A stretch of 64,000 nt of DNA from Rhodoferax sp. (GCA_030645355.1 JAUSNJ010000111.1:1-64000), one strand, 5' to 3'. Counted from the first letter of the stretch, positions 1 to 47,450 are shown. Program-made: numbers and translations. Notes: a model not told the origin generated them from the sequence alone.

Positions 1-1400
1 TCGTGGTCCACACCAAAGGCCACGCACTCACCCACCATGCGGGTTGCATACAGCACTTCCTCTACTTCCGTCGGGCTGACGCGGTAACCCGATGTCTTCA
101 TCATTTCATCGCGCCTGCCTATAAAGTAGAGAAATCCCTCCTCATCCTGGCGCACGTTGTCGCCTGAAAATACTGCGTATTCCGGTAACTGCAGTCCAGG
201 CTGGCGCCCGGGCGCATCCGATGCCAGCAGCTTGTACCGCTCCGCGGTCTTTTCGGCGTCGTTCCAATAGCCCATGCCCACCAGGGCGCCCCGGTGGACC
301 AACTCGCCGGGCTCATGTGGCGCGCACGGCGAACCGTCTTCGCGCAATACCAGAATCTCGGCATTCGGAATGGCTTTGCCAATCGAGTCTGGCCGACGGT
401 CTACCTCTTCCGGCGGCAAATACGTCGATCGGAACGCTTCCGTCAGGCCATACATCAAATATGGCCGTGCGTTGGGAACCTGCTGGCGCAACAGCGTCAG
501 CGTCTCACGCGGCATGCGTCCACCGGTATTGGCAAAATAGCGCAGCTTCTCTCCAATGGCTGGCGGCCATTCAAGTTGCGCCAACTGGATGTAGAGGGGG
601 GGCACGGCCGTCAAGCCGGTAACGCCTTCGCGCTCCATGGACTTGAGCACATCACGTGGCATCAGATAGTTCAGCAGAACCACTCTGGCCCCCGCATGAA
701 ACGCCGTCGTCAGTTGGCTGAACCCCGCATCAAATGACAGGGGCAGGGCTGCGAGCAGCGTGTCTTGTCCATTGTTCTCCAGATACGATGCCACGCTCTT
801 GGCCCCCGCCACCATATTGCGGTGCGACAAGACTACCCCCTTGGGCCGGCCCGTGCTCCCCGAGGTGTACAAAATGGCCACCATGTCGGTGTCGATCACG
901 CGGTGCCCCGTGCGCAGGGGGCTGTTTAGCAGGCCACTCCAATTGATCAATGCCAGTGGGCTTGAAACGGCTGCGCCAGCGGGGGCTTGTCCGATCGCCG
1001 AGTCCGTGACAACAACATGACGAAGATCGTGGCATTCGGCAAGCACGTCTTTCATCAAGGCCAGGCGTTCCGGTGAGATCACCAACACCCGGACGTTGCA
1101 GTCACGCAGAATGAAGGCGACTTGCTCTGGCTTCAGCAGCGGATTGATCGGTACAAAAACAGCGCCAGCTGCTGGTGCACCAAAACTGGCTATTACCGCC
1201 TCGAAACGCTTTTCCAGGTAAATGGCAACCCGATCACTGCGTGATATTCCCAGGTCCATCAGCCCCGATGCAAATTGGGCGACACCGAGGTTCAAATCCT
1301 CGTAACTCAAATGCGCGCCACCGTTGGTCAAGGCAATAGCACCTGGAGTGCGATGGGCCGCTACAGCGATCAGTTCATGCAATAGCGTAGATTCGGTCAT
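1..1400 (-). CDS. AMP-dependent acyl-CoA ligase, exosortase A-associated type (partial, runs off left edge)
   Basis: Reverse translation starting at 1400 gives MTESTLLHELIAVAAHRTPGAIALTNGG...; AMP-binding motif VAILYTSGSTGRPKGVVLSH near 840-895 in the same frame; C-terminal GFLYFIGRRDEMMKTSGYRVSPTEVEEVL still open at position 1. Confidence 0.9.
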   Translation of the reverse strand, partial: MTESTLLHELIAVAAHRTPGAIALTNGGAHLSYEDLNLGVAQFASGLMDLGISRSDRVAIYLEKRFEAVIASFGAPAAGAVFVPINPLLKPEQVAFILRDCNVRVLVISPERLALMKDVLAECHDLRHVVVTDSAIGQAPAGAAVSSPLALINWSGLLNSPLRTGHRVIDTDMVAILYTSGSTGRPKGVVLSHRNMVAGAKSVASYLENNGQDTLLAALPLSFDAGFSQLTTAFHAGARVVLLNYLMPRDVLKSMEREGVTGLTAVPPLYIQLAQLEWPPAIGEKLRYFANTGGRMPRETLTLLRQQVPNARPYLMYGLTEAFRSTYLPPEEVDRRPDSIGKAIPNAEILVLREDGSPCAPHEPGELVHRGALVGMGYWNDAEKTAERYKLLASDAPGRQPGLQLPEYAVFSGDNVRQDEEGFLYFIGRRDEMMKTSGYRVSPTEVEEVLYATRMVGECVAFGVDH

Positions 1401-1507
1401 AGGAAATTGCCTTGAAATGGACGAAAAACTCTGCCCTGGTTCGGAGTGGGAAAGTATCGCACCTAAAATGATCCGACTTTATCGATGACTCAAAAGGAAA
1501 CTCTTCC

Positions 1508-1759
1508 ATGGACGTAAGAAAAGAACTGCTGTCGCTTCTGGATGAGGTGTTGCATCTCGAAGGTCGAACATCGTCCTTTGATGAACACACACCGTTGCTC
1601 GGCGCGTTACCAGAAATGGATTCCATGGGCGTGGTCTCGCTGCTGACGGCATTTGAAGATCGTTTGGGATTTTCGGTCGATGACGATGAAATAGACGGTT
1701 CCGTATTTCAGACTTTTGGCACCCTCTTGGTGTTTGTCCAGAACAAGCTCGAACGTTGA
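1508..1759 (+). CDS. Acyl carrier protein
   Basis: 83 aa, acidic, phosphopantetheine-site motif PEMDSMGVVSLL. Confidence 0.85.
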   Translation: MDVRKELLSLLDEVLHLEGRTSSFDEHTPLLGALPEMDSMGVVSLLTAFEDRLGFSVDDDEIDGSVFQTFGTLLVFVQNKLER

Positions 1760-1791
1760 CCTTGACGACCAATTTCCCGGGCTGAAATCCC

Positions 1792-2664
1792 CTACCAGCT
1801 GCGAAGCCACTCCAGTCCCCAGCCAACGACCTGGTCACGTTCTTCGGCGGAAGAAAAAGTGTGATCTGCGCTTGGGTGATCGTAACGGGTGACTGGCTTG
1901 GCACGAAACTGCTCTTGCCAGGCCACATCGGCATTTACCACTTCTTCAAATTCCCGAGCGATAAGATCCCGTCCACTGAGCACCAGCATGACAGGCCCTG
2001 CAAATCGCGTCAGTCCCTGCAACAAGCGCTCGGGCAACGAGCCTTCGCGGGAAATCGGTGCCCCCAGGGTCCCTCCGGCGGTCTGCTCAGCACTGGGCTT
2101 CGGAGTGCGGGTCATACGCATCAAATTCCAGGCCGACCACAGCGATGCGAACGGATTGAAGCGCAGGCCAAACACTTTCTTCCAGAAACTCGGCTGCATG
2201 ATGCGCTGCAGATAGTAAAACCGCAATATGGTCTTGGCCTCGCCGGCCTGCGTGCGTACCCAAGGATTGAGAAGTACAAGGCCCTTGACCCGTACATCGC
2301 GATGGGCGTAAAAGAGAATCGCTGAAGAAGCGTCGCATTCGCCCCAAAGCACGACCTCCGTCATTTCCGGAACAGCCTCAAAAAATCGATCAATGGCGGC
2401 TCTGATATCGTTGTCTATTCTTTCAAAGCCCACGAACTCGCCCTGGGCGTCACCCATTCCGCGATAGTCAAACCGAAAGGCCGGGAAGCCGGCTGCACAC
2501 AGCCTGCGTGACCACAGCGTCAACTGCCTGGCACCACCAGCGCGATACTGAGGTCCGCCGCCCACGACGAACAGTACACCACGTTGTCGTGGCGCATCTG
2601 GCTTGTGCACGATGCCGACCAGAGAGTCCCCGTCGCATTCAAAAGTCAGCGCAATTTCAGTCAT
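1792..2664 (-). CDS. Exosortase A system-associated alpha/beta hydrolase (type 1)
   Basis: 290 aa; alpha/beta hydrolase features (LFVVGGGPQYRAG, FDYRGMGDAQG); neighbour of second hydrolase and AMP-ligase as in XrtA loci. Confidence 0.85.
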   Translation of the reverse strand: MTEIALTFECDGDSLVGIVHKPDAPRQRGVLFVVGGGPQYRAGGARQLTLWSRRLCAAGFPAFRFDYRGMGDAQGEFVGFERIDNDIRAAIDRFFEAVPEMTEVVLWGECDASSAILFYAHRDVRVKGLVLLNPWVRTQAGEAKTILRFYYLQRIMQPSFWKKVFGLRFNPFASLWSAWNLMRMTRTPKPSAEQTAGGTLGAPISREGSLPERLLQGLTRFAGPVMLVLSGRDLIAREFEEVVNADVAWQEQFRAKPVTRYDHPSADHTFSSAEERDQVVGWGLEWLRSW

Positions 2665-3524
2665 TTTGCGGCCACCTTCTCGTTAAGCCAGGAACTGGTT
2701 TTTTCGATGATGGTGACACCAATAACCCGTTCATGAACCTGCCAAAAGGCCGGTCCAGGATATGCGATGACATCTACTGCTGCGCCAGCTACGTTCCAGG
2801 TTTGCAATGCATTGCGGCTTGCAAGTGGTATTTCCAGCTTTTCCGGATTTGCGTTCTCAAGCCACAAGGCTGAAGATCCCGCGAGCAGTGGATGTCCGAT
2901 CAAACTTGCACCTTCAATGGCTTCGGCAAGCGCGGGATGAATCTCATACCCCGCTACCTCCAGGGTAAGTCCAGACGCCAACTGTTGCCGCATGGACGCC
3001 GTCGTTTCCTTTGGCAGATCGGGGCGGTCCAACCTGGCCGCCATGCGAACACGAAAGAACTGGGTCAGATGAACCTTGCCATCCAGAACGGGTTGCCAAA
3101 GAACGAGCGCGACGTCCGGCTTACCCAATCCGGCATGCACAGCGCCCGCAAGAATGGCGCCTAGGCGGACTCCCAGGATTGCTTTCAAACCACCCGGCTG
3201 TGCCATCAGCCATTGCTGGGCCGCGACAATGTCGCTGAGCCAGATTTCCCATCTGGCGTCGCGGTACTCGCCGTCACTATCACCTGTCCCGTGCAAATCG
3301 ACGATCAGAGTGCCAAAGCCGAAAGCCGCCAGAGCCTGCGCCTGCAGCGTCATCATGCTTCGGCACCGGTTCATCTCTTCATTGAACGGCGGAACACACA
3401 GAACATGGCCACGGATCTTCGACACATCGCGTGGACGATGGTGAACCATGAACAGTCGCCCATTTGGCGTGTCCAGGAAGAAAGGTTCGACTGCTACATC
3501 GACTGACCCGTTTGATCCGGCCAT
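2661..3524 (-). CDS. Exosortase A system-associated hydrolase (type 2)
   Basis: 287 aa; VLCVPPFNEEMNRCRSMMTLQAQALAAFGFGTLIVDLHGTGDSDGEY; overlaps hydrolase 1 by 4 nt. Confidence 0.85.
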   Translation of the reverse strand: MAGSNGSVDVAVEPFFLDTPNGRLFMVHHRPRDVSKIRGHVLCVPPFNEEMNRCRSMMTLQAQALAAFGFGTLIVDLHGTGDSDGEYRDARWEIWLSDIVAAQQWLMAQPGGLKAILGVRLGAILAGAVHAGLGKPDVALVLWQPVLDGKVHLTQFFRVRMAARLDRPDLPKETTASMRQQLASGLTLEVAGYEIHPALAEAIEGASLIGHPLLAGSSALWLENANPEKLEIPLASRNALQTWNVAGAAVDVIAYPGPAFWQVHERVIGVTIIEKTSSWLNEKVAAK

Positions 3525-3527
3525 TGA

Positions 3528-3797
3528 CTACAGCAGTCCTTTGCGCTTCAAGAGAAAGTTGGCCATCATCTCCATGCTGCCCAAGTTGTCGATGGTGAAT
3601 TCCTCTGTGGCGATGCGCAGGCCATACTTTGCTTCAAACCAGGCAATGAGATCCAGAAGACCGGCCGAATCAATCGCGCCAGTTGCCGGCAGGATTTCTT
3701 CGGCGGTTATATCGCTGGCATCGCAGTCAAGCGTTGCAGCAATTTCCACAACCTTAGCTTTTATCGCCGCAATAATTGATTCTTTGTCGAGTGTCAT
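3528..3797 (-). CDS. Acyl carrier protein
   Basis: 89 aa; ATGAIDSAGLLDLIAWFEAKYG carries the DS(L-like) phosphopantetheine attachment motif. Confidence 0.85.
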   Translation of the reverse strand: MTLDKESIIAAIKAKVVEIAATLDCDASDITAEEILPATGAIDSAGLLDLIAWFEAKYGLRIATEEFTIDNLGSMEMMANFLLKRKGLL

Positions 3798-3825
3798 GTT
3801 GTACCGGTCTTAAAAATGTGCGCAG

Positions 3826-4929
3826 TCAATCGCGCTTGGCGGGTTTGGATAATTTCCGAAGCGTGCTTGCCACGTCAGATCCATTCATGACGCGGTGATC
3901 GTAGGTCGCCCCCAATACCGCCACGCCATCAGCCCCCACGGTGTGAGCGACCATCAGCGACGTATTGGGCGAAAGGATTGGGATGTGCCGGGCCACTTTC
4001 CAGCGAGCCATACTGGAAAATCCCACCGTGGTTCCCTGTGTTTCTTTCGGACCCAGATTGTGGCTCGCGGCGCGGCGCTGCAAATCAACCATTGCATTCA
4101 CAAAACCCAATTCGCCCAGATGGTTGGCGTCACGCACCACAGCCAGGTACAACACGTCACCGGCTTGCACCGTAGATCCCAAATTGACGTCCTTGTACTC
4201 ATACCGCTTCGTTCCCACAATTGTTGCGTTCAGCCGGGCGTTTTCGCGCGCCAGCTCCACCAGACGCCACGCCATCAACGGCAGCAACGGCCCCAGCATC
4301 AAATTGTGACGCGTCCCGAACTCCTGGGCATAGGCGTCCCACAACGCAGGATCGTAGGTGATCTCAATGTAGCCTGGTACCGCCACGTCACGATGCCACG
4401 TGACCGTGGACAACATGCCGCGATCCTCGCTTTTCAAGGAAATCAATTCACCCGCCACGTCAGGCAGTGATTCACTTCGTAAAGTGGGTTGATCCGCCGG
4501 TTTCGACAGATTGCCCTTGGCAGCCATATACCGTTCGATGTCAGCCACACTCAACCGGTCCCCACTGGCCGGCACCATCGCGGCATCCAATCCATGGGCA
4601 TTCAGCAAGGCACGCGCCTTGGCAGTTGGGGTTGATCCACCGGCTGCAACACTGTTCTTCGCAACTTTCAACTCGGGGATCGCGTCGTCTTTGGTCTTGC
4701 CCAACCAGATCAGAACTGCACCAACGGTTACCACATCGTCAACGTCGCCAAGTATTGCCAGGACAAAACCGTCCGCACTTGCTTCTACGTCGACAACGGC
4801 TTTGTCGGTTTCCACCTGGGCAACAACCTGGCCTTTGCTCACCAAGTCGCCGACGGCTACCTGCAGACTGACAAGTTTTACCTCATCGTCATTGTTGTTG
4901 ATTCTTGGTACATAGAGCGCTTCAGCCAT
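3826..4929 (-). CDS. 2-oxoacid dehydrogenase complex E2 (dihydrolipoamide acyltransferase)
   Basis: 367 aa; N-terminal lipoyl domain with ETDKAVVDVEA, E3-binding-like segment, catalytic ATYDHRVMNGSDVA. Confidence 0.9.
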   Translation of the reverse strand: MAEALYVPRINNNDDEVKLVSLQVAVGDLVSKGQVVAQVETDKAVVDVEASADGFVLAILGDVDDVVTVGAVLIWLGKTKDDAIPELKVAKNSVAAGGSTPTAKARALLNAHGLDAAMVPASGDRLSVADIERYMAAKGNLSKPADQPTLRSESLPDVAGELISLKSEDRGMLSTVTWHRDVAVPGYIEITYDPALWDAYAQEFGTRHNLMLGPLLPLMAWRLVELARENARLNATIVGTKRYEYKDVNLGSTVQAGDVLYLAVVRDANHLGELGFVNAMVDLQRRAASHNLGPKETQGTTVGFSSMARWKVARHIPILSPNTSLMVAHTVGADGVAVLGATYDHRVMNGSDVASTLRKLSKPAKRD

Positions 4930-4958
4930 CGCAATTGATCTCTCTTACAAAGAAGTAT

Positions 4959-6947
4959 TTAAAACAGGCCAAGGACTTTATCAACAATGGCTTGCTCGTC
5001 AGGCAATTGGGATCGCTCCAAACTGCGTGCAGAAGCAATTGGAACCGGGGGCATCCCGATGCGAACAACATTGCCGCGATAACCCGCTTCAGCCAGGCTT
5101 GCCACCAGTTCGGCACTGACACCAAACTCATGATGTGACTCTTCAATCACTGCGATGCGCTGGCGCGTCAACAGCAGTCCAACCAATGTATTTTTGGGCA
5201 TCGGTGCCAGAAGAGAGGGCGACACAATCTCTACGGACAATTCCTCTTCCTGCTCAAGTCGCGTTGCAGCACGCTCGATAACCGGAAGCATTCCCCCAAA
5301 ACCAACCAACGTTACATCCGGTTGCGAATCTCCGCGGCGCACGGTTGGGAACAGCTCAGCACCCAAATCCGCATCCGCCGGCGGCACCGTCTGGTAGTCC
5401 TTCGGGTCCTGCGCTTCAGTGTAAAGCAGCTTGTGTTCCAGAAAGACCACGGGATTGGGCCATCGTGTTACGGCGTTGACCAGCAACTGCCCGACGTTGT
5501 GACGATGGCTTCCATAGACCACCGTCAGGCCAGGCACAGACACCAGGATATTCTCAGGACTCTGGCTATGGGTCGGGCCATAGCCGCGCCGCCCGCCGCA
5601 GGGCGCCCGTATGACCACGGGCACTTCGCAGTCCGCAAACATACCCGGGAACTTGACGGCGTGGTTGTAGATTTGGTCCATGCACAGCGTCAGAAAATCA
5701 GCGAACATGATCTCGACAATCGGGCGACGCCCGGCCATGGCTAGCCCTATCCCGGCTCCGGTAATACCAGCCTCGCTGATGGGCGTCGAAATCACCCTTC
5801 CTGGGAACTCGGTGGACAAGCCGGCAGTTACCTTGAAAGCTCCGCCGTAGGGTTCATGCAAATCTTCGCCCAACAACAGGACGTCATTGCAACTGTCGAG
5901 CAAATTGCGCAAACCGCCATTGATGGCAAGACGCACACTCCCGACAACTGGAGGCTGCTGCGCGATCAAAGGAGCGCGCGCTGACCGCATGGAGTGCTCC
6001 GGCACCTCATCGAAGCTTGATTCAGGCGAAGCCATTGCCGTCGCTTCAATGTCCCGGATAAAGGCCGCGTTGCGCGCCTCGATCCCTTCTCTGACTCCGG
6101 GATCCAGACGGCTACCAAGCGCCATAAGAGGGTCGCGTTCGGTGATGGCTTCGCGCTCCCCGGCGTCGCGCAAGTCATCTCCTTTGCTGTGGGGCCCCAG
6201 TCGACCGGTCTTGATGACCAGCATGCCGGGACCCTTATTGCCACGCATCTCCGTGACGACTGCGTCAACCGCCACCATGAATCCCGGCTCGGCATCGTCC
6301 AGCTGCCAGGTCCGCATGCCAAATGCCGCACCCCGGCCTTCAATGGTCCCGGCAACAACATCCCTGGTGTACGTGGTCTGAGCAATCCCGTTGTTCTCAA
6401 CCACAAACAGCACCGGAGCGCCCCAAACGGCAGCAAGATTCATGCTTTCGTAGAGCAAACCCTCGCCCAGCGTTCCATCTCCAATCATGATGGCCACCAC
6501 GCCCCGGCTGGCACGGCGTTTGATATCCAGCGCGAAGCCGCTGCCAATAGCGGTCATGCCAGCCTGGATGCCATTGCTGTGAAAATTCCGATATGCGATG
6601 TGCTGGCTGCCACCGTACCCACCGCAGACGCCGTCCTGACGCCCCATGATTTCTGCGACCAAACCGACCGCATGACCCGAATAGGTCAAAAAATGACCGT
6701 GGTTGCGATGATTTGAAAGCACCATGTCATCAGGGTCGTTCAGTGCCCGGACGACCGACATCTGACACAACTCCTGACCCAGACAGGTGTGGGTGGTGCC
6801 GGACAGCAAGCCTCGACCGAAAAGGTCAAGAATGAGTTGTTCGGTCGATCGAATGAAATGGCCGAATCCGTAGAGACTGGCATCGTCCAGACCAATCTGG
6901 GGTTTTCCAGCCTGATCAAACATGTAACCGGGAACGGGTCTAATCAT
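4959..6947 (-). CDS. 2-oxoacid dehydrogenase E1, fused alpha and beta subunits (TPP-dependent)
   Basis: ORF 4959..7052; likely start at 6947 (MIRPVPGYMFDQ). TPP motif GDGTLGEGLLYESMNLAAVWGAPVLFVVENN and beta-subunit segment GEDLHEPYGGAFKVTAGLSTEFPGRVISTPISEAGITGAGIG. Confidence 0.9.
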   Translation of the reverse strand: MIRPVPGYMFDQAGKPQIGLDDASLYGFGHFIRSTEQLILDLFGRGLLSGTTHTCLGQELCQMSVVRALNDPDDMVLSNHRNHGHFLTYSGHAVGLVAEIMGRQDGVCGGYGGSQHIAYRNFHSNGIQAGMTAIGSGFALDIKRRASRGVVAIMIGDGTLGEGLLYESMNLAAVWGAPVLFVVENNGIAQTTYTRDVVAGTIEGRGAAFGMRTWQLDDAEPGFMVAVDAVVTEMRGNKGPGMLVIKTGRLGPHSKGDDLRDAGEREAITERDPLMALGSRLDPGVREGIEARNAAFIRDIEATAMASPESSFDEVPEHSMRSARAPLIAQQPPVVGSVRLAINGGLRNLLDSCNDVLLLGEDLHEPYGGAFKVTAGLSTEFPGRVISTPISEAGITGAGIGLAMAGRRPIVEIMFADFLTLCMDQIYNHAVKFPGMFADCEVPVVIRAPCGGRRGYGPTHSQSPENILVSVPGLTVVYGSHRHNVGQLLVNAVTRWPNPVVFLEHKLLYTEAQDPKDYQTVPPADADLGAELFPTVRRGDSQPDVTLVGFGGMLPVIERAATRLEQEEELSVEIVSPSLLAPMPKNTLVGLLLTRQRIAVIEESHHEFGVSAELVASLAEAGYRGNVVRIGMPPVPIASARSLERSQLPDEQAIVDKVLGLF

Positions 6948-7887: not shown

Positions 7888-8742
7888 ATGGCACAACCCA
7901 CCGTAGTACCGGTCACAGACGCCGCATTGCCCGCGTTTTCAAGTTTTTTGCAGCAGCACATGCAGGGCAATCGCTCCGCCGCTGATTGGGAGCGCGGTTT
8001 GCGCAACCAATGGACGGCAGAGCTGCCAAATTTCGGTTTCATGTTGAAGAACGACCAGGGCGAAATCGTCGGTGGAATTGGTGCCTACTATGCTGACCGC
8101 GTCATCCGCGGGAAGCCCGAGAAGTTCTGCAATATCACAAGCTGGTGTGTGCTTGACACCTATCGGCAGCAAAGTATGAAACTGGCCATGACGGTGATCA
8201 AGCAGCCTGGCTACCATTTCACCGACTTTTCCCCCACCAAAGTCGTGGGTGGAACCCTGAAGTTCTTCAAGTTTCAGGAAATGGATGACGCACAAGCCGT
8301 CGTATTGAACTTGCCGGGCGTGCCGTTGAACGGCGGGCGTCTGCTTGACAGGGCGACTGACATTGAAGCGGCCTTGTCCGGTAGTGCACTGAAAATCTAC
8401 CAGGACCACGCAGAGTTTCCTTGGCTGAAACATGTGCTCATTGGCAGTCCGGGGGAATGGTGTCACGTGATCTACAAGCGAGCAACATTCAAGCACATGC
8501 CGGCCGCGATCATCTTGCATTTGTCGGACCGACGCTTGTTTTTGCGCCACTTCCGGCGCCTGTCAACCCACTTGCTGCTGCGCGGCATGGTCAGTACGCA
8601 TGTGGAATGCCGCATGTTGGACGCAGTACCGTGGCCGGCGGTCATTCGCTCCGGTTTCAACCGCAAAGTTTTTCTCAGCGAAAGTCTGGATTCGCGCGAT
8701 ATCGACTATTTGTACTCAGAAAGGGTGGCTCTCGACCTATGA
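7888..8742 (+). CDS. GNAT-like N-acyltransferase
   Basis: 284 aa; GEIVGGIGAYYADR...NITSWCVLDTYRQQSMKLAMTVIKQ resembles the acetyl-CoA binding core of GNAT proteins. Confidence 0.55.
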   Translation: MAQPTVVPVTDAALPAFSSFLQQHMQGNRSAADWERGLRNQWTAELPNFGFMLKNDQGEIVGGIGAYYADRVIRGKPEKFCNITSWCVLDTYRQQSMKLAMTVIKQPGYHFTDFSPTKVVGGTLKFFKFQEMDDAQAVVLNLPGVPLNGGRLLDRATDIEAALSGSALKIYQDHAEFPWLKHVLIGSPGEWCHVIYKRATFKHMPAAIILHLSDRRLFLRHFRRLSTHLLLRGMVSTHVECRMLDAVPWPAVIRSGFNRKVFLSESLDSRDIDYLYSERVALDL

Positions 8743-8770: not shown

Positions 8771-9823
8771 ATGAAGAGCGACGGACTTGCCTCCCAGATT
8801 GCCGCGTACTGGTCTGCACCCTCGGACATTCCCCAGCTGCCCAGATGGCGCCAACTGGTTGAAATGGCCTTGCTGTACTTCTTGCGTCGCAATGGTCCGG
8901 GGTATTACGTGCAGGCCCGCTGGGGCCGCGCTTCCATTCCTTTTCGGGACAAGTGGCAGCATATCAATCGGACCGAGTACCGGCAGCTGGTTCGCCGGTT
9001 GAACCCGGGTGCATACCAGAAGTCTTCGCAGCACAAGTTGATCGAGAAGTCGGTGTTGACCCTTCAGCGCCTGCCCACGCCGGCATTCATTGGATTCGTG
9101 CATCCGCTTCGCGGCAAGTGCGCTCAGGGTGATCCTATGCGTAGCCCGGATCAACTGCGCCAACTGCTCGCACGGCACGCTGGCCAACGCGTTTGCTTCA
9201 AACATGTAGAAGGTTGGGGCGGGTTTGGGTTTGCCAGCTATCGGATCGCTGTGGTTGACAGCGCCGTCCAGCTTGTCCGAAAGGAAGGCGAGGCCCCATT
9301 GACGGTCGACGCCTGGTGGCAGAAAAATGGCCAAAACCAGGATGGGTTCTTGCTCGAATCGCATCTGGAACAGCATCCAGATATGGCAGCTTTGAACGAG
9401 AGCTCCGTCAACACCATTCGCATCTGGGTCATATTGGAGGGAGATCGCTGGAGCGTGTTGGGTGGGTATTTGCGAGTAGGCCGCAGGGGAAGCCAGGTTG
9501 ATAACAATTCCAGCGGAGGCATTGCCTGTCCGGTCGACGTCGAGTCAGGAAAAGTGCGGGAGGCCTTCGATCCGGCGTGCGCCGGTCACGCCCTGACCCT
9601 GCACCCGGACTCACGCATTGCCCTCGTCGGCTTCCAGATTCCGTTCTGGCGCGAGGCGACGAAATTGGCTGGTGAGGCGGTGGCCGCATTTCCGCAAACC
9701 CGGCTGGCCGGGCTGGACATGGCAATCACGCCGAATGGCCCCAGTCTGATTGAACTCAATGTAATGGCTGATTACATTGGTTGCGCCTGGATGGACTTGC
9801 CTTTGAAAGCACGCCTGAAATAG
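8771..9823 (+). CDS. Sugar-transfer-associated ATP-grasp protein
   Basis: Likely start at 8771 (MKSDGLASQIAAYW); VCFKHVEGWGGFGFASYRIAVV...LNESSVNTIRIWVI...ITPNGPSLIELNVMADY. Confidence 0.75.
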   Translation: MKSDGLASQIAAYWSAPSDIPQLPRWRQLVEMALLYFLRRNGPGYYVQARWGRASIPFRDKWQHINRTEYRQLVRRLNPGAYQKSSQHKLIEKSVLTLQRLPTPAFIGFVHPLRGKCAQGDPMRSPDQLRQLLARHAGQRVCFKHVEGWGGFGFASYRIAVVDSAVQLVRKEGEAPLTVDAWWQKNGQNQDGFLLESHLEQHPDMAALNESSVNTIRIWVILEGDRWSVLGGYLRVGRRGSQVDNNSSGGIACPVDVESGKVREAFDPACAGHALTLHPDSRIALVGFQIPFWREATKLAGEAVAAFPQTRLAGLDMAITPNGPSLIELNVMADYIGCAWMDLPLKARLK

Positions 9824-9896
9824 GTGGGCAAAGTCTTGTTGGCGGATGAGCGCTGCTCAAGTTAAGTTCGAAATTTGCCGCTGTTAGACTGCGCCC

Positions 9897-10916
9897 ATGA
9901 ACGCACGATCGGAAAATAGACACTCAGATAAACATCTCCCTTACCTCGATGGCTGGCGGGGAATCGCCATCATCTGCGTGCTATGCGGACACTTTACAAG
10001 CATAGGGGCGCTGGGCGGCATTGGTGTGAGTGTGTTCTTCGTGCTTTCTGGCCTATTGATGAGCCGCATTCTGTTTGTCGAGAGGACTCCACTGCACTTG
10101 TTCTATCGCAGGCGCTTCGCCAGAATCGTGCCTGTGTTCTGGCTTTACCTCTCCGTGGTTTTCTTCGGTGGCTGGTTGTTTCTGGATCAGTTTTCTCTCA
10201 CGGAATTTCTATCCACGGCCCTATTTCTGCGGAGCTACTTCCCAGATACAAGTATTGACAAATCCAGTGTGCCAATAGGACATATTTGGTCGCTCAATGT
10301 CGAAGAGCATTGCTACATTTTGTTGTCGTTGCTCAGTCTGTTGGCGATTCGGTTTGGTGAGGCCAGCGCCAGAATTGTTCTGTCAATTTGTGCTGCCATG
10401 TGTGTAGTTTTCTTTGTCTTCTACAAGTACTATCCCCCGGTTGCTCAAACACCGTTCAATATGAGGACCGAGGTGGCGGCATTTCCATTGTTGTTCTCAT
10501 GCTCCTTGTTTCTCTGGGCTCGCAAATACCAATTCAAAGTGCCGAGCGCAGTGCCACTGATTTCCTTCCTGGGTGCATTTGGCATTGCGTTTTTTGCCAC
10601 ATCGTTTTTCGCAAAAATTGTGGGCACCGCGGTATTGCTCGCTGTATCGGTTAACACTTTGGCTGTCGCTCCGCCATGGGCTTTGGCGCTGCTGTCCAAT
10701 TCGCTTCTACGGTGGTTTGGGGTGTGCTCATACTCAATTTACCTTTGGCATGAGATATTTTATTTTTTTCAACCGCACACCACCGCTTGGCCATACTACG
10801 GAATATTTGCAGTGGGATCAACTTTGTTGATTGCAAGTGGTTCGTTCTACTTTTTCGAGAATCCACTGCGCAAACGACTCTCCGGCAGACCGGATTCAGT
10901 CAGAAACGTTTCCTAG
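9897..10916 (+). CDS. Acyltransferase 3 family (integral membrane O-acyltransferase)
   Basis: 339 aa; LPYLDGWRGIAIICVLCGHF, GVSVFFVLSGLLMSRI, YSIYLWHE; multiple TM segments. Confidence 0.9.
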   Translation: MNARSENRHSDKHLPYLDGWRGIAIICVLCGHFTSIGALGGIGVSVFFVLSGLLMSRILFVERTPLHLFYRRRFARIVPVFWLYLSVVFFGGWLFLDQFSLTEFLSTALFLRSYFPDTSIDKSSVPIGHIWSLNVEEHCYILLSLLSLLAIRFGEASARIVLSICAAMCVVFFVFYKYYPPVAQTPFNMRTEVAAFPLLFSCSLFLWARKYQFKVPSAVPLISFLGAFGIAFFATSFFAKIVGTAVLLAVSVNTLAVAPPWALALLSNSLLRWFGVCSYSIYLWHEIFYFFQPHTTAWPYYGIFAVGSTLLIASGSFYFFENPLRKRLSGRPDSVRNVS

Positions 10917-10973
10917 CCGGGTTATGCCAGCGCCCGCATGAACTTTCACTGAGGCCAGCATAAGGACAACGAC

Positions 10974-12143
10974 ATGATCAAGATTGAGGACGTCAAACTT
11001 GAAGAAACGTCTGAGCACAAGGAACTGTCCGCTATGGTGGATGGATCACCTGTCTGGTTTCGCTTTCCGAAGTGGCTTCTGATTGAGCCGCGCGCCGAGA
11101 TATTCTTGCCACTGGCGTTAGCTGAAGCAATGGTTCGTGCAGAGGACGTACTGGTCGCGAACAATCTGACTCTATCGGCGAAGCTGGCCGGTTCGCTGCC
11201 AGAAATTGTCAACCTATTCTGCTCGTGGAACCGGGACGACAACCACCCGATTCGGGTGCATGCCGTAACCGATATCACCGCGCATCCAGCACCGTCGGTC
11301 ATCTGCTGCTTCTCGGGCGGCATCGACAGCAGCTTCAGTTTCTCGCAGCACCAGGCCGAGATCACTGATTTGCTGGTAGTGATGGGGTTCGACTTAGCCG
11401 ACGCTGGTGCGCAGTGGGAGCAATTGACAGGGCGCATCCAGAAATTTGCCAATAAGCACGGCAAGCGGCTGATTGCGGTAGAGACGAATGTGCGGCAGGT
11501 CATTGAGTCACGCAAGCTGTCGTGGGAGGCCAGTCATGGCAGCGTCCTCGCCGCAATAGGCATTGCCCTGTCACCAGGCACCTTCATTATTCCGTCGAGC
11601 TACGGATACGCCGACCTGTTCCCTTGGGGCTCGCATCCATTGCTTGATCCACTTTGGAGCACGGAGTCCACCACCGTGCTGCATGATGGCCTGGGATTTA
11701 ACAGGACACAGAAGACGGAGCGGCTGGCTGGTCAACCGACGCTGCTCGATGACTTGCAGGTGTGCTGGAATCACATTGACAAGAATTGCGGGCGTTGCTC
11801 CAAATGTGTACGCACCTCGCTCGCGTTGCACATGCTTGGTGTTAGTTCGTCGAGCCTGCCGGAGTACCAGGGCACGACGTTGCTTCGGATTCTGAAGCCA
11901 GGTAGCTTGGCTGGTGTCCCTTTTGTTGAGGATCTGATTCGATTGGCGAAGCGCACCGGGCATCTTGAAGTGGCCCGCATTCTGGTCCGGTATAGAGACC
12001 GTTTTCTGTTCAAGTATCACCTGATCGAGAGCGTTCGCGCCTTCCTTGGCAACCGCGGCCGCGGGTTGTCGCGCCGTTTCGCAAAGAAGGGTTGGCATGC
12101 ATTGCGCACGAAGATCAAGAGCGGAAACGTGACGCTGGATTGA
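10974..12143 (+). CDS. PP-loop (adenine nucleotide alpha hydrolase/QueC-like) protein of unknown function
   Basis: 389 aa; CCFSGGIDSSFSFS PP-loop, Cys cluster NCGRCSKCVRT. Confidence 0.7.
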   Translation: MIKIEDVKLEETSEHKELSAMVDGSPVWFRFPKWLLIEPRAEIFLPLALAEAMVRAEDVLVANNLTLSAKLAGSLPEIVNLFCSWNRDDNHPIRVHAVTDITAHPAPSVICCFSGGIDSSFSFSQHQAEITDLLVVMGFDLADAGAQWEQLTGRIQKFANKHGKRLIAVETNVRQVIESRKLSWEASHGSVLAAIGIALSPGTFIIPSSYGYADLFPWGSHPLLDPLWSTESTTVLHDGLGFNRTQKTERLAGQPTLLDDLQVCWNHIDKNCGRCSKCVRTSLALHMLGVSSSSLPEYQGTTLLRILKPGSLAGVPFVEDLIRLAKRTGHLEVARILVRYRDRFLFKYHLIESVRAFLGNRGRGLSRRFAKKGWHALRTKIKSGNVTLD

Positions 12144-30510: not shown

Positions 30511-32187
30511 ATGCCTGTGACCGATTCTTTTCTAGCCCTTGGTTCCCCCCGGTTTTCTGACCCGCGACTGGCCGAGCTGGCCAGTCGCCAAGGTGTTGAG
30601 GCTGCATGGCGCCAAGCCGTCAGCGCTGATCCGCGCAGCGCGATGGCAGGTGTCACCGGCGACTTTGCGGTGGGGATGCGCGAGGACAGTGGCCGCACGT
30701 TTCTGGCGGTCGACCGGTTTGCCATTCGCACCATGTGCTACTGCCTCCAGGACGGGCAACTGCGGTTTGCTGCCCGCGCCGATGAGTTGGCCGATGGCAA
30801 TGCCGATGTTGACCCGCAAGCCATTTTTGACTACCTGTATTTTCACGTCATCCCGTCACCACGCACCATCTACAAGGGTATCTTCCGCCTGCCTCCCGGG
30901 CACTTTGCGTTGTTCGAGAATGGCCATCTCACGGTAGCGCCATATTGGGCTCCGGTATTCGTGGAGCAACGTGATCCGTCGTTCGGCGCGTTGAAAGATG
31001 AATTCAGGGCGTTGTTGCGCGAGGCGGTGGCCAGTCAGCTGGATGGCGGCAAACCGGCCTGTTTCCTGAGTGGCGGCACCGACAGCTCCACGGTAGCCGG
31101 CATGGCCGGTCTTGCCAGCGGCAAAGCCGCAGCCAGCTATTCGATTGGATTTGATGCCCAGGGCTACGACGAAATGGAGTTTGCGCGCCTGGCGGCCAAG
31201 CATTTCAAGACCGAGCATCATGAGTATTACGTGACACCAGAGGACCTGGTGCGCAGCATTCCGTCCGTTGCGGCGCACTTCGACCAACCGTTTGGAAACT
31301 CGTCAGCCTTGCCTTCCTACTACTGCGCGAAGATGGCGCGCGAGGATGGCGTGAGCAAGATACTCGCCGGTGATGGTGGTGACGAACTTTTTGGCGGCAA
31401 TAGCCGCTATGCCAAGCAAAAGGTTTTTGGCTGGTACGACCATGTGCCCGGCCCGATCAGGCGCGGCCTGATGGAACCCCTGTTGGGGACAGGGGCGGCC
31501 GACGTTCTTGCCGTGACGCGCAAGGCGCGCAGTTACGTCGAGCAGGCCCGCGTGCCCATGCCAGATCGGTTGCAGATGTACAACCTGATCATGCGCCTTG
31601 GCGTCAACGAGGTACTGACGCCTCAAATGCTGGCTCAGATTGACATGGCTGGCCCGCTGCAATTGCAGCGCCAGGTCTGGCAAAGCCCGCAGGAGTGCAG
31701 CCCATTGAATCGTGAACTCGCGTTTGACTGGCGGTTTACTTTGGCTGAGAGCGACCTGCCCAAGGTGTTGGGTGCCACGGGATTCGCAGGGATTGGCGTC
31801 GGCTTTCCGATGTTGGACGACCGGCTATTGGCCTTTTCACTCAAGCTGCCGACCGATTACAAGCTCAAGGGGCAAAGACTGCGCTGGTTCTTCAAGGAGG
31901 CACTGCGCGGTTTCCTCCCCGACGAGATTCTGGTCAAGAAGAAGCAGGGCTTTGGACTGCCCTTTGGCGTCTGGGTCAATGCGGAACCCAAGCTCAAGGC
32001 CCTGGCCAGCGAATCGTTGAACAGCCTTGCCCGGCGCGGTGTCGTGCGCTCCGATTTTGTGCAGACCTTGTTGACGAAGCGACTGCCTGAACACCCTGGT
32101 TATTTCGGTGAAATGGTGTGGATTTTGATGATGTTGGAGCAATGGCTGGCAGTGAAGGCCCCCCGATTTAGCGTGTCCAATCCCTAG
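30511..32187 (+). CDS. Asparagine synthase-family protein lacking the N-terminal Cys nucleophile
   Basis: 558 aa; ATP-binding CFLSGGTDSSTVAGMAGLASG, LAGDGGDELFGGNSRYAKQK; N-terminus MPVTDSFLALG instead of MCGI. Confidence 0.85.
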   Translation: MPVTDSFLALGSPRFSDPRLAELASRQGVEAAWRQAVSADPRSAMAGVTGDFAVGMREDSGRTFLAVDRFAIRTMCYCLQDGQLRFAARADELADGNADVDPQAIFDYLYFHVIPSPRTIYKGIFRLPPGHFALFENGHLTVAPYWAPVFVEQRDPSFGALKDEFRALLREAVASQLDGGKPACFLSGGTDSSTVAGMAGLASGKAAASYSIGFDAQGYDEMEFARLAAKHFKTEHHEYYVTPEDLVRSIPSVAAHFDQPFGNSSALPSYYCAKMAREDGVSKILAGDGGDELFGGNSRYAKQKVFGWYDHVPGPIRRGLMEPLLGTGAADVLAVTRKARSYVEQARVPMPDRLQMYNLIMRLGVNEVLTPQMLAQIDMAGPLQLQRQVWQSPQECSPLNRELAFDWRFTLAESDLPKVLGATGFAGIGVGFPMLDDRLLAFSLKLPTDYKLKGQRLRWFFKEALRGFLPDEILVKKKQGFGLPFGVWVNAEPKLKALASESLNSLARRGVVRSDFVQTLLTKRLPEHPGYFGEMVWILMMLEQWLAVKAPRFSVSNP

Positions 32188-45893: not shown

Positions 45894-47450
45894 TCAGGGA
45901 TTTGCGGTTTCCAAGAGCCTTTGGATATCAGGCAAATTGGTGCGCACGAAGTCCTCGATTGCTCTTTCGCCTTGACCCGCCTCGCCCTTGAGCGCGTACA
46001 CGAGAATCACGGCAGAGTCATCGCCCCTGCCAATCAGGCTGTAGCCCGCAGCATAGGCTTTGGCCAGGGCATCGTTGGCGGTCAGCGTACCGTTCACCCA
46101 ATAGATCTGCCATACGACAAGCCGGCTCTCCTGCGCCTGACCTGCCAAAGGCGTGCCACTCAATTCGGCGGTGCGAAACAGGAGGGGTTTGTCGCCCAGT
46201 TCCAGCGTATGGTTTCCGCGGGATACCAGTGCCCATTGCGGATCTTTGCTCTTAACAAGTACATTTTCGGAACTCACAAGCTTGCTGTCGTCGCTCTGGC
46301 GGTTGTAGTAGCCAAGGTAAAGGCCTACAACTTGCTCTGCGTTGGCATAGGCTGCCTGGATCTGTACCGAAGGGTTTTGAAATGCGGGCTGCCAATTTGC
46401 AGGCTGCAGCGCTGTAGAAGTCCAGCCCGAACCCAAGTTTCCTGGCGCCGTGAGTTGCGGCCTTGCCAGTGCATGGTTTGAACCATGGATAGCGTCGCGC
46501 GCGATCACGGGCATGGCAAGCAAAACAGCAAAAGCTATCGCTGTTGCGAATGTGAATGCCAAAGACACACTGCGGCTGTCACGGTCTGGCGACGTGGCGG
46601 GCGTGGCAGGTTTAGGGGTCGGCTCAGACCAACGTGCTCCCAACATGAACATCAGCATGATCACCACGCCAAAGAACACCCACCCATAAACCAGATGATC
46701 CACGCCAGTTGCGAGTTTGTTCCCGGACAAATGCCCCAGAAGGACAATCAAATAGGCGCGCATCCAGTTCGCCACTACCGGCACCAGCAACGACAGCCCA
46801 ATGAACAAGACACGGCGCGAAGTAGACTGATAGTTCAAATAGGCAAACAGTGTGCCGACAGTGAGGGACGCAATAAGGTAACGCACGCCGCTACAGGCTT
46901 CGACCACCGACCAGTTACCGGAGGGAATGACGAACTGAAGTCCTTCCCGAAAGACCGGGATACCAGTCAGGCGCAATGCCAGCACCGTAAAGTCTGCGGT
47001 CCACTCCATAAGCTGGGGCATGGCGAATTCGCCGAACGGCACAGCAAAGAACAAAAAAGCCATTGGAAAAGCGAGAGACCGCGCAACCGTCCAACCCATC
47101 ACCGCTGGAACGAGCAGGATGATCAGGCTCACAAACGCCAGTTGTCGAAGCGCGTTGACTGCCGCCAGGTCGCCTAGCAGCCAGGCGAATGCAGCACCCG
47201 CGATGAGCGGGCAAGCCAGCAGGCTGGGCTGGGGCACTATCTGCGCGATCGTTTGGCGCTTGCGCCAAACCAGCCACACAACGATGGGCGGGACAAGAAA
47301 GCCGTGCGTGAAAGTATCGGATCGGATCCAGATGGTGACGATGGCATGGGCGGTGTCGAAGTACAAACCAAGCACGCATGCCAACAGCACGACATATACC
47401 GCCAACGCGGTGTGCCACGCATGTTTGGAATTTGTAGTGGCCTGCGTCAT
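45894..47450 (-). CDS. xrtA: Exosortase A fused to EpsI-like C-terminal domain
   Basis: 518 aa; TM-rich N-terminus with exosortase Cys/Arg/His positions (VVEACSGVRYLIASL, VANWMRAYLIVLLGHLSGN, DHLVYGWVFF); C-terminal soluble EpsI-like domain. Confidence 0.92.
   Translation of the reverse strand: MTQATTNSKHAWHTALAVYVVLLACVLGLYFDTAHAIVTIWIRSDTFTHGFLVPPIVVWLVWRKRQTIAQIVPQPSLLACPLIAGAAFAWLLGDLAAVNALRQLAFVSLIILLVPAVMGWTVARSLAFPMAFLFFAVPFGEFAMPQLMEWTADFTVLALRLTGIPVFREGLQFVIPSGNWSVVEACSGVRYLIASLTVGTLFAYLNYQSTSRRVLFIGLSLLVPVVANWMRAYLIVLLGHLSGNKLATGVDHLVYGWVFFGVVIMLMFMLGARWSEPTPKPATPATSPDRDSRSVSLAFTFATAIAFAVLLAMPVIARDAIHGSNHALARPQLTAPGNLGSGWTSTALQPANWQPAFQNPSVQIQAAYANAEQVVGLYLGYYNRQSDDSKLVSSENVLVKSKDPQWALVSRGNHTLELGDKPLLFRTAELSGTPLAGQAQESRLVVWQIYWVNGTLTANDALAKAYAAGYSLIGRGDDSAVILVYALKGEAGQGERAIEDFVRTNLPDIQRLLETANP

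Follow-up and report, generated by a model that had tools for sequence, protein, structure and literature searches.

This locus raises the question of why genes for a ThDP-dependent E1 and a lipoyl E2 lie beside the ligase and hydrolase genes of an exosortase A (XrtA) set, and what they make there. The window, by which we mean the whole 64-kb stretch of DNA that was analysed, is the first part of contig C73 (101.8 kb) of a 4.45 Mb draft genome that is 88% complete. Gene calls and curated HMMs bear out the inventory given by an earlier note on this DNA: an AMP-forming ligase, two carrier proteins (ACPs), two XrtA-associated proteins, an E2 with an ETDKA lipoyl domain and a fused E1. The genes that matter for the argument are the following.

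3-1400, minus strand: TIGR03098 AMP-forming ligase (curated HMM, 704 bits against a cutoff of 592); the 3' end lies off the contig start
1508-1759, plus strand: ACPb, carrier protein of the XrtA ligase/hydrolase set (Pfam PP-binding)
1792-2664, minus strand: TIGR03100 'hydrolase 1' of the usual XrtA set (curated HMM, 307 against 168)
2661-3524, minus strand: TIGR03101 'hydrolase 2' of the usual XrtA set (curated HMM, 238 against 203)
3528-3797, minus strand: ACPa, carrier-protein partner of E1/E2 (PP-binding)
3826-4929, minus strand: E2, with a lipoyl domain (ETDKA, NNNDD motif) and a 2-oxoacid_dh acyltransferase domain (Pfam)
4959-6947, minus strand: fused alpha-beta ThDP E1 of the RenH/ACP-linked type (Pfam E1_dh, Transket_pyr and Transketolase_C)
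7888-8742, plus strand: predicted GNAT-fold acyltransferase (fold comparison; no Pfam match over cutoff)
45894-47450, minus strand: exosortase A (XrtA), some 40 kb from the cassette within the same polysaccharide region (TIGR03109, 352 against 208)

The gaps between E1 and E2, E2 and ACPa, and ACPa and TIGR03101 are 29, 28 and 3 bp, and the TIGR03101 and TIGR03100 genes overlap by 4 bp; thus, these five genes look like one operon. The ACPb gene is convergent to the run, in agreement with the earlier description of tight packing on one strand save for one ACP. Contig C79 opens with 334 bp that match window positions 334-1 at 93.7%, and it also encodes the TIGR03099 decarboxylase of the same genome. 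Therefore, the ligase probably continues on C79, perhaps as a strain variant. No E3 gene was found within the 64-kb window, as the earlier note had also reported; E3 is encoded elsewhere in the genome, on contig C28. Further genes of the window encode the XrtA amidotransferase, the XrtA polysaccharide deacetylase and a nucleotide-sugar dehydrogenase that closely resembles TviB.

E1, E2 and ACPa form an independent conserved cassette that is separate from the XrtA ligase/hydrolase set. Its distribution was surveyed by a profile scan for E1 across 85,462 species genomes, using two peptide patterns; the scan is a sample, and counts are from the matches listed. These include 37 loci with E1 relatives at 53-79% identity and three at 39-41%, the remaining matches listed being at 35% or less, short or partial matches aside. 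E2 follows E1 in 35 of the 37 listed loci (the other two end at a contig edge), and ACPa comes next after E2 in 31 of these 35. Of the other four, two are cut by contig ends, and at L018 and L046 ACPa lies about 7 kb away. The Asp-Ser of ACPa is invariant in 33 homologues. Hosts among the matches listed are Beta-, Gamma- and Alphaproteobacteria, Acidobacteriota and Magnetococcales. E1 is rare within the order, with three occurrences in 200 sampled genomes. L048 and L051, both of the 39-41% group, have a hexapeptide-repeat domain joined to the lipoyl domain in place of the E2 catalytic domain.

XrtA is over cutoff in 28 of the 38 cassette genomes (the 37 listed and the genome studied here); among the 27 genomes that belong to, or are placed with, the Beta- or Gammaproteobacteria, 26 have it. 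The background in the order sample is 51 of 200 genomes. All three E1-bearing genomes of that sample have XrtA (hypergeometric p ~0.016, kinship ignored), and E1 is found in three of the 51 XrtA-bearing ones. Six of the 38 cassette genomes gave no match whatever to the XrtA model. E1 and XrtA share a contig, 5-42 kb apart, in 12 of the 28 genomes. The remaining genomes have them on separate contigs or far from each other; in the complete genome of Methylomonas LW13, 2.6 Mb separate E1/E2 from XrtA. The gene-neighbourhood survey that had been suggested for E1/E2 at XrtA loci thus finds linkage or co-occurrence to be common but not universal.

TIGR03100 is over cutoff in only 11 of the 38 cassette genomes, including the one studied here, and in 31 of the 200 order genomes, every one of which bears XrtA. 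The usual order in 20 E1-less TIGR03100 loci is ACPb-TIGR03101-TIGR03100, often with the ligase and decarboxylase, and neither ACPa nor a GNAT-like gene was found in any of the 20 within the stretch examined. Because the TIGR03100 set occurs without ACPa and GNAT, and the cassette often without TIGR03100, we regard E1-E2-ACPa as an addition to the usual XrtA set. On these counts we reject a single XrtA-specific module as a general rule; nor do they support the joint module of E1/E2 with the XrtA ligase and hydrolases that the earlier note had put forward. The window does resemble the XrtA/PEP-CTERM set TIGR03098-TIGR03101, in that its ligase and its two alpha/beta proteins score above their curated cutoffs and the TIGR03099 decarboxylase is in the genome, but its E1, E2, ACPa and GNAT are not members of that set. 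A literature search on exosortase together with ACP and ligase found nothing.

By sequence, the window E1 belongs with RenH and ACP/NRPS-linked E1s, and not with the sampled PDH-, BCKDH- or acetoin-type E1s. Its best matches in the plasmid collection are RenH of the renieramycin pathway (38% over 95%, 5e-128) and actinobacterial E1s beside ACP, E2 and NRPS genes. At L130 the order is ACP-E1a-E1b-E2, adjoining an NRPS, which gives the same parts as in SclQ1-4. In the ML tree, a 100/100 branch puts the cassette E1s, the 39-41% group and the RenH/actinobacterial E1s apart from 19 PDH-like E1s; within the RenH side it is weak (an 84/48 fork), and RenH and the actinobacterial E1s sit on long branches. 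The motifs HSKGDD, G[IV]Q and PYGGAF occur in 43 of 43 E1s on the RenH/cassette side and GYGPTHS in 42, and all four are absent from the 19 PDH-like E1s. The tree and motif comparison reach QncN/QncL and NapB/NapD indirectly, via RenH and L130-L132; this detour, the long branches and the weak inner fork are the chief weaknesses of the ketose reading.

The E2 motifs point the same way. An NNNDD-like motif is common to cassette E2s and RenI-type/ACP-linked E2s, and the Asp of DHRxxDG is absent from most E2s of the cassette and RenI side and present in the outgroup E2s with a visible motif. The window E2 reads DHRVMNG, with the catalytic-type His kept (it is invariant in the family) and Asn at the Asp position, which is variable family-wide. 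We considered this Asn as an E2 defect and rejected it, since the residue there differs across the family and RenI-type E2s are without the Asp too. Given the E1 clade, the motifs of both proteins and the organisation with an ACP, a putative ketose-phosphate donor and glycolyl product are our leading guess. The sister-group position of E1 does not fix the donor.

Scl/Qnc-type systems are reported to take a C2 unit off a ketose phosphate and load it on an ACP, giving glycolyl-ACP, and SclQ1-4 of the scleric acid pathway are homologous to QncM/QncN/QncL (PMC6335953). The same transfer is reported for the type to which DinS/DinT/DinU of the dnacin pathway belong (PMC7570522). Shared by the window with QncN/QncL/QncM (quinocarcin), NapB/NapD/NapC (naphthyridinomycin), SclQ1-4 and DinS/DinT/DinU is a ThDP E1 encoded together with a lipoyl/acyltransferase protein and an ACP, and its E1/E2 signatures are common to RenH/RenI and NRPS-linked ACP-E1-E1-E2 operons. 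The listed scl cluster, like the window, has no E3. Unlike these systems, the window has a fused alpha-beta E1, a separate E2 and no NRPS, and the apparent consumer is a GNAT-fold acyltransferase in polysaccharide loci. Lacking an NRPS consumer beside it, the cassette is thus classed as a variant, rather than a member, of the ketose-to-glycolyl-ACP synthases of the Nap/Qnc/Scl type.

The earlier note had assumed a 2-oxoacid donor, and the homology of the E1 and E2 domains to 2-oxoacid dehydrogenases, with the ACP conserved in the cassette, would suit a route in which E1 decarboxylates pyruvate, a branched-chain or an unusual 2-oxoacid and E2 charges ACP with the acyl group for use in glycan decoration. 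We consider this unlikely: E1 groups with ketose-to-glycolyl-ACP-type E1s, outside the sampled PDH, BCKDH and acetoin types, its motifs differ, both E1 and E2 fall below every curated PDH/2-oxoacid dehydrogenase cutoff in HMM searches, and plain acetyl would presumably require no special ACP route. Very improbable is an ordinary pyruvate, acetoin or branched-chain dehydrogenase that makes acyl-CoA and lies near XrtA genes by chance. Such complexes share with the window the E1/E2 architecture, the lipoyl lysine and the catalytic-type His, and the E3 encoded elsewhere could serve one here, but the window set is a separate clade with other motifs, a dedicated ACP and no E3, its E2 is without the Asp kept by visible outgroup E2s, and ACPa so regularly follows E2. 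The genome already encodes aceE and a separate E1/E2/E3 set; these sets and the E1 clade led us to reject an ordinary PDH/acetoin complex. E1/E2 as the organism's only such dehydrogenase, with no XrtA linkage, was the finding that the earlier note had named as contrary to its proposal; other sets are present, and co-occurrence with XrtA is common.

A candidate consumer of the acyl group lies just outside the span 1-6947 covered by the earlier note. For this gene, at 7888-8742 on the plus strand, ACYLTRANSFERASE, a relative is present in 25 of the 37 listed cassette loci. No Pfam family is over cutoff for its protein, and the homologue at L020 scores 16.5 bits with Pfam GNAT against a cutoff of 20.7. 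The AlphaFold2 model (pLDDT 93.5, pTM 0.88) matches the GNAT proteins 2ozg and Eis in Foldseek (E 6e-11, prob 1.00), and we predict that the protein is a GNAT-fold acyltransferase. A profile of the family found no match among PDB sequences. Fold comparison was needed for this family and for the deacetylase-fold proteins described below because profile searches were uninformative.

In the 200-genome order sample, the GNAT-fold family occurs in five genomes, the three that have E1 and two that do not. Of these two, one has the gene behind ACP-FkbH-MaoC/SDR (L123) and the other behind an NRPS (L124), and on Aureimonas and Sinorhizobium plasmids the relative precedes a TIGR03098 ligase, with an ACP and decarboxylase nearby. 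What these settings (E1/E2/ACP, FkbH, NRPS or TIGR03098) have in common is a loaded carrier protein, from which we infer that carrier proteins are the acyl donors of the family. Since the rhizobial relatives sit with a TIGR03098 ligase and an ACP, the window GNAT could draw on ACPb rather than ACPa. GNAT proteins usually have the diphosphate-loop motif R/Q-x-x-G-x-G/A. In the family alignment this position reads R-x-x-S-M-x-L in most rows, a loop that would be compatible with a non-CoA acyl donor, though it does not prove one.

In Methylomonas, Hydrogenophilales and others, the GNAT gene has a second gene next to it. The model of the protein of this second gene (pLDDT 80) matches polysaccharide deacetylases by fold comparison, and profile searches with the family against sequences gave chance-level matches only. 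At L042 and L044 the deacetylase-fold and GNAT-fold proteins are fused. Near E1-E2-ACPa in three loci without the GNAT-like gene are other acyltransferases, an Antibiotic_NAT (L040) and a hexapeptide-repeat protein (L041), and a protein with a sub-cutoff GNAT match (L037). Many cassette loci have glycosyltransferases, AsnB-like amidotransferases and deacetylase-fold proteins as neighbours. In the Caulobacter holdfast system, the deacetylase HfsH and the GNAT N-acyltransferase HfsK are thought to act on exopolysaccharide (PMC5362036). As in the cassette loci, a polysaccharide deacetylase is there paired with a GNAT-family N-acyltransferase, a likeness by description only; in the part of that source that we draw on, a dedicated acyl-ACP synthase like that of the window is not described. 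A literature search combining 2-oxoacid dehydrogenase, ACP and polysaccharide found nothing.

We put at about even the chance that E1/E2 load a small acyl group on ACPa and that the GNAT protein then N-acylates an exopolysaccharide amino sugar. E1, E2 and ACPa would act as a dedicated acyl-ACP synthase. E1, with its ThDP, would pick up a small acyl unit, for which xylulose-5-phosphate or another ketose phosphate, giving its C2 unit, is the likeliest source, and hand it, probably as glycolyl, to the lipoyl lysine of E2 as a thioester; the E2 acyltransferase domain would move it to the phosphopantetheine of ACPa, and the dihydrolipoyl group may be re-oxidised in trans by a housekeeping E3. The predicted GNAT would then use acyl-ACPa to acylate an amine; the likeliest acceptor is an amino sugar in the XrtA-linked exopolysaccharide, freed by a deacetylase. 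The ligase, ACPb, TIGR03100 and TIGR03101 constitute the usual XrtA module, to which the cassette was added. The earlier idea of a dedicated acyl-ACP route, probably for glycan decoration, is supported by the conservation of E1-E2-ACPa and by the acyltransferase and deacetylase partners. More tentatively, and with some doubt, we suggest that a ketose-derived glycolyl-ACP pathway was recruited across several phyla for exopolysaccharide amino-sugar N-glycolylation by a carrier-dependent GNAT, often after a fused or neighbouring deacetylase.

Two alternatives concern the destination of the acyl group. It is improbable, in our view, that E1/E2/ACPa form one pathway with the XrtA ligase, ACPb, decarboxylase and alpha/beta proteins, for example for PEP-CTERM anchor modification. 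ACPa does lie directly before TIGR03101-TIGR03100 in the window and in 10 of 10 related loci that carry them, the place of ACPb in E1-less loci, and the 12 genomes with E1 within 42 kb of XrtA also speak for it; however, 27 of the 38 cassette genomes are without TIGR03100 over cutoff, and some are without any match to the XrtA model. We see little prospect that the product is a secreted small molecule bearing the acyl group, with polysaccharide not the target. The closest relatives work in NRPS pathways, and one E1-less GNAT relative follows an NRPS, but neither in the window nor in the family loci was an NRPS recognised next to the cassette, and the glycosyltransferases, AsnB-like amidotransferases and deacetylase-fold neighbours of many loci argue for a glycan.

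If N-acylation of exopolysaccharide is correct, lipoyl-mediated transfer of a sugar C2 unit to ACP, described for antibiotic assembly lines, would be tied to bacterial matrix polysaccharides; related enzyme cassettes are so far known from antitumour-antibiotic pathways, and here one lies beside secreted-polysaccharide genes. An acyl, perhaps N-glycolyl, modification would then be predicted in the exopolysaccharides of floc- and biofilm-forming Accumulibacter, Azonexus, Dechloromonas, Rhodocyclus and Methylomonas. An unannotated GNAT family would also gain a function that can be tested. The survey separates the generic XrtA ligase/hydrolase set from the added cassette, a split that annotation alone does not reveal.

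The two proteins of that generic set that the earlier note called hydrolases are TIGR03100 and TIGR03101 family members by their scores; the activity itself is doubtful for TIGR03101, because the nucleophile-elbow position is Arg in 28 of 28 aligned sequences. In TIGR03100 the nucleophile position is Cys in all 31 aligned sequences.

The nucleophile positions of the two XrtA-associated proteins annotated as hydrolases (window pair 1792-3524) are occupied, in the aligned sequences, by Cys in all TIGR03100 proteins (31/31) and by Arg in all TIGR03101 proteins (28/28). With these residues, TIGR03101 ("hydrolase 2") is possibly not a hydrolase, and TIGR03100 ("hydrolase 1") could be an acyltransferase or thioesterase of the Cys type.

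The gene for the GNAT-fold acyltransferase (GNAT-like gene) also occurs with other carrier-loading systems. In another genome of the same order, an operon (locus L123, 9085-13603) has the order ACP-FkbH-MaoC/SDR-GNAT-like gene, and may represent a glyceryl-type acyl-ACP version of the carrier-loading/GNAT-like system of the window. The TIGR03098 ligase, TIGR03099 decarboxylase and an ACP accompany the GNAT-like gene in polysaccharide regions on plasmids of Sinorhizobium meliloti and Aureimonas (L133, 9953-13985; L134, 6750-11671). In the sequence of S. meliloti RCAM1750, the decarboxylase appears as two ORFs.

In two Myxococcota loci (L048, 5374-6444; L051, 2489-3514), the protein adjacent to E1 is a fusion of a lipoyl domain and a hexapeptide-repeat domain, an arrangement in which CoA and ACP may both be bypassed.

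Other genes in the window are:
within 8780-12143, downstream of the GNAT-like gene: PF14397, a sugar-transfer associated ATP-grasp protein
within 8780-12143, downstream of the GNAT-like gene: PP-loop-like protein (SGGIDSS)
30511-32187: second, shorter AsnB-like amidotransferase, scoring below the cutoff of TIGR03108, the XrtA-associated amidotransferase model

The shorter amidotransferase recurs close to the ligase set in several genomes. Window positions 1-334 overlap positions 1-334 of another contig end from the same genome (C79) at 93.7% identity, which suggests a strain mixture at the assembly break within the TIGR03098 ligase gene.
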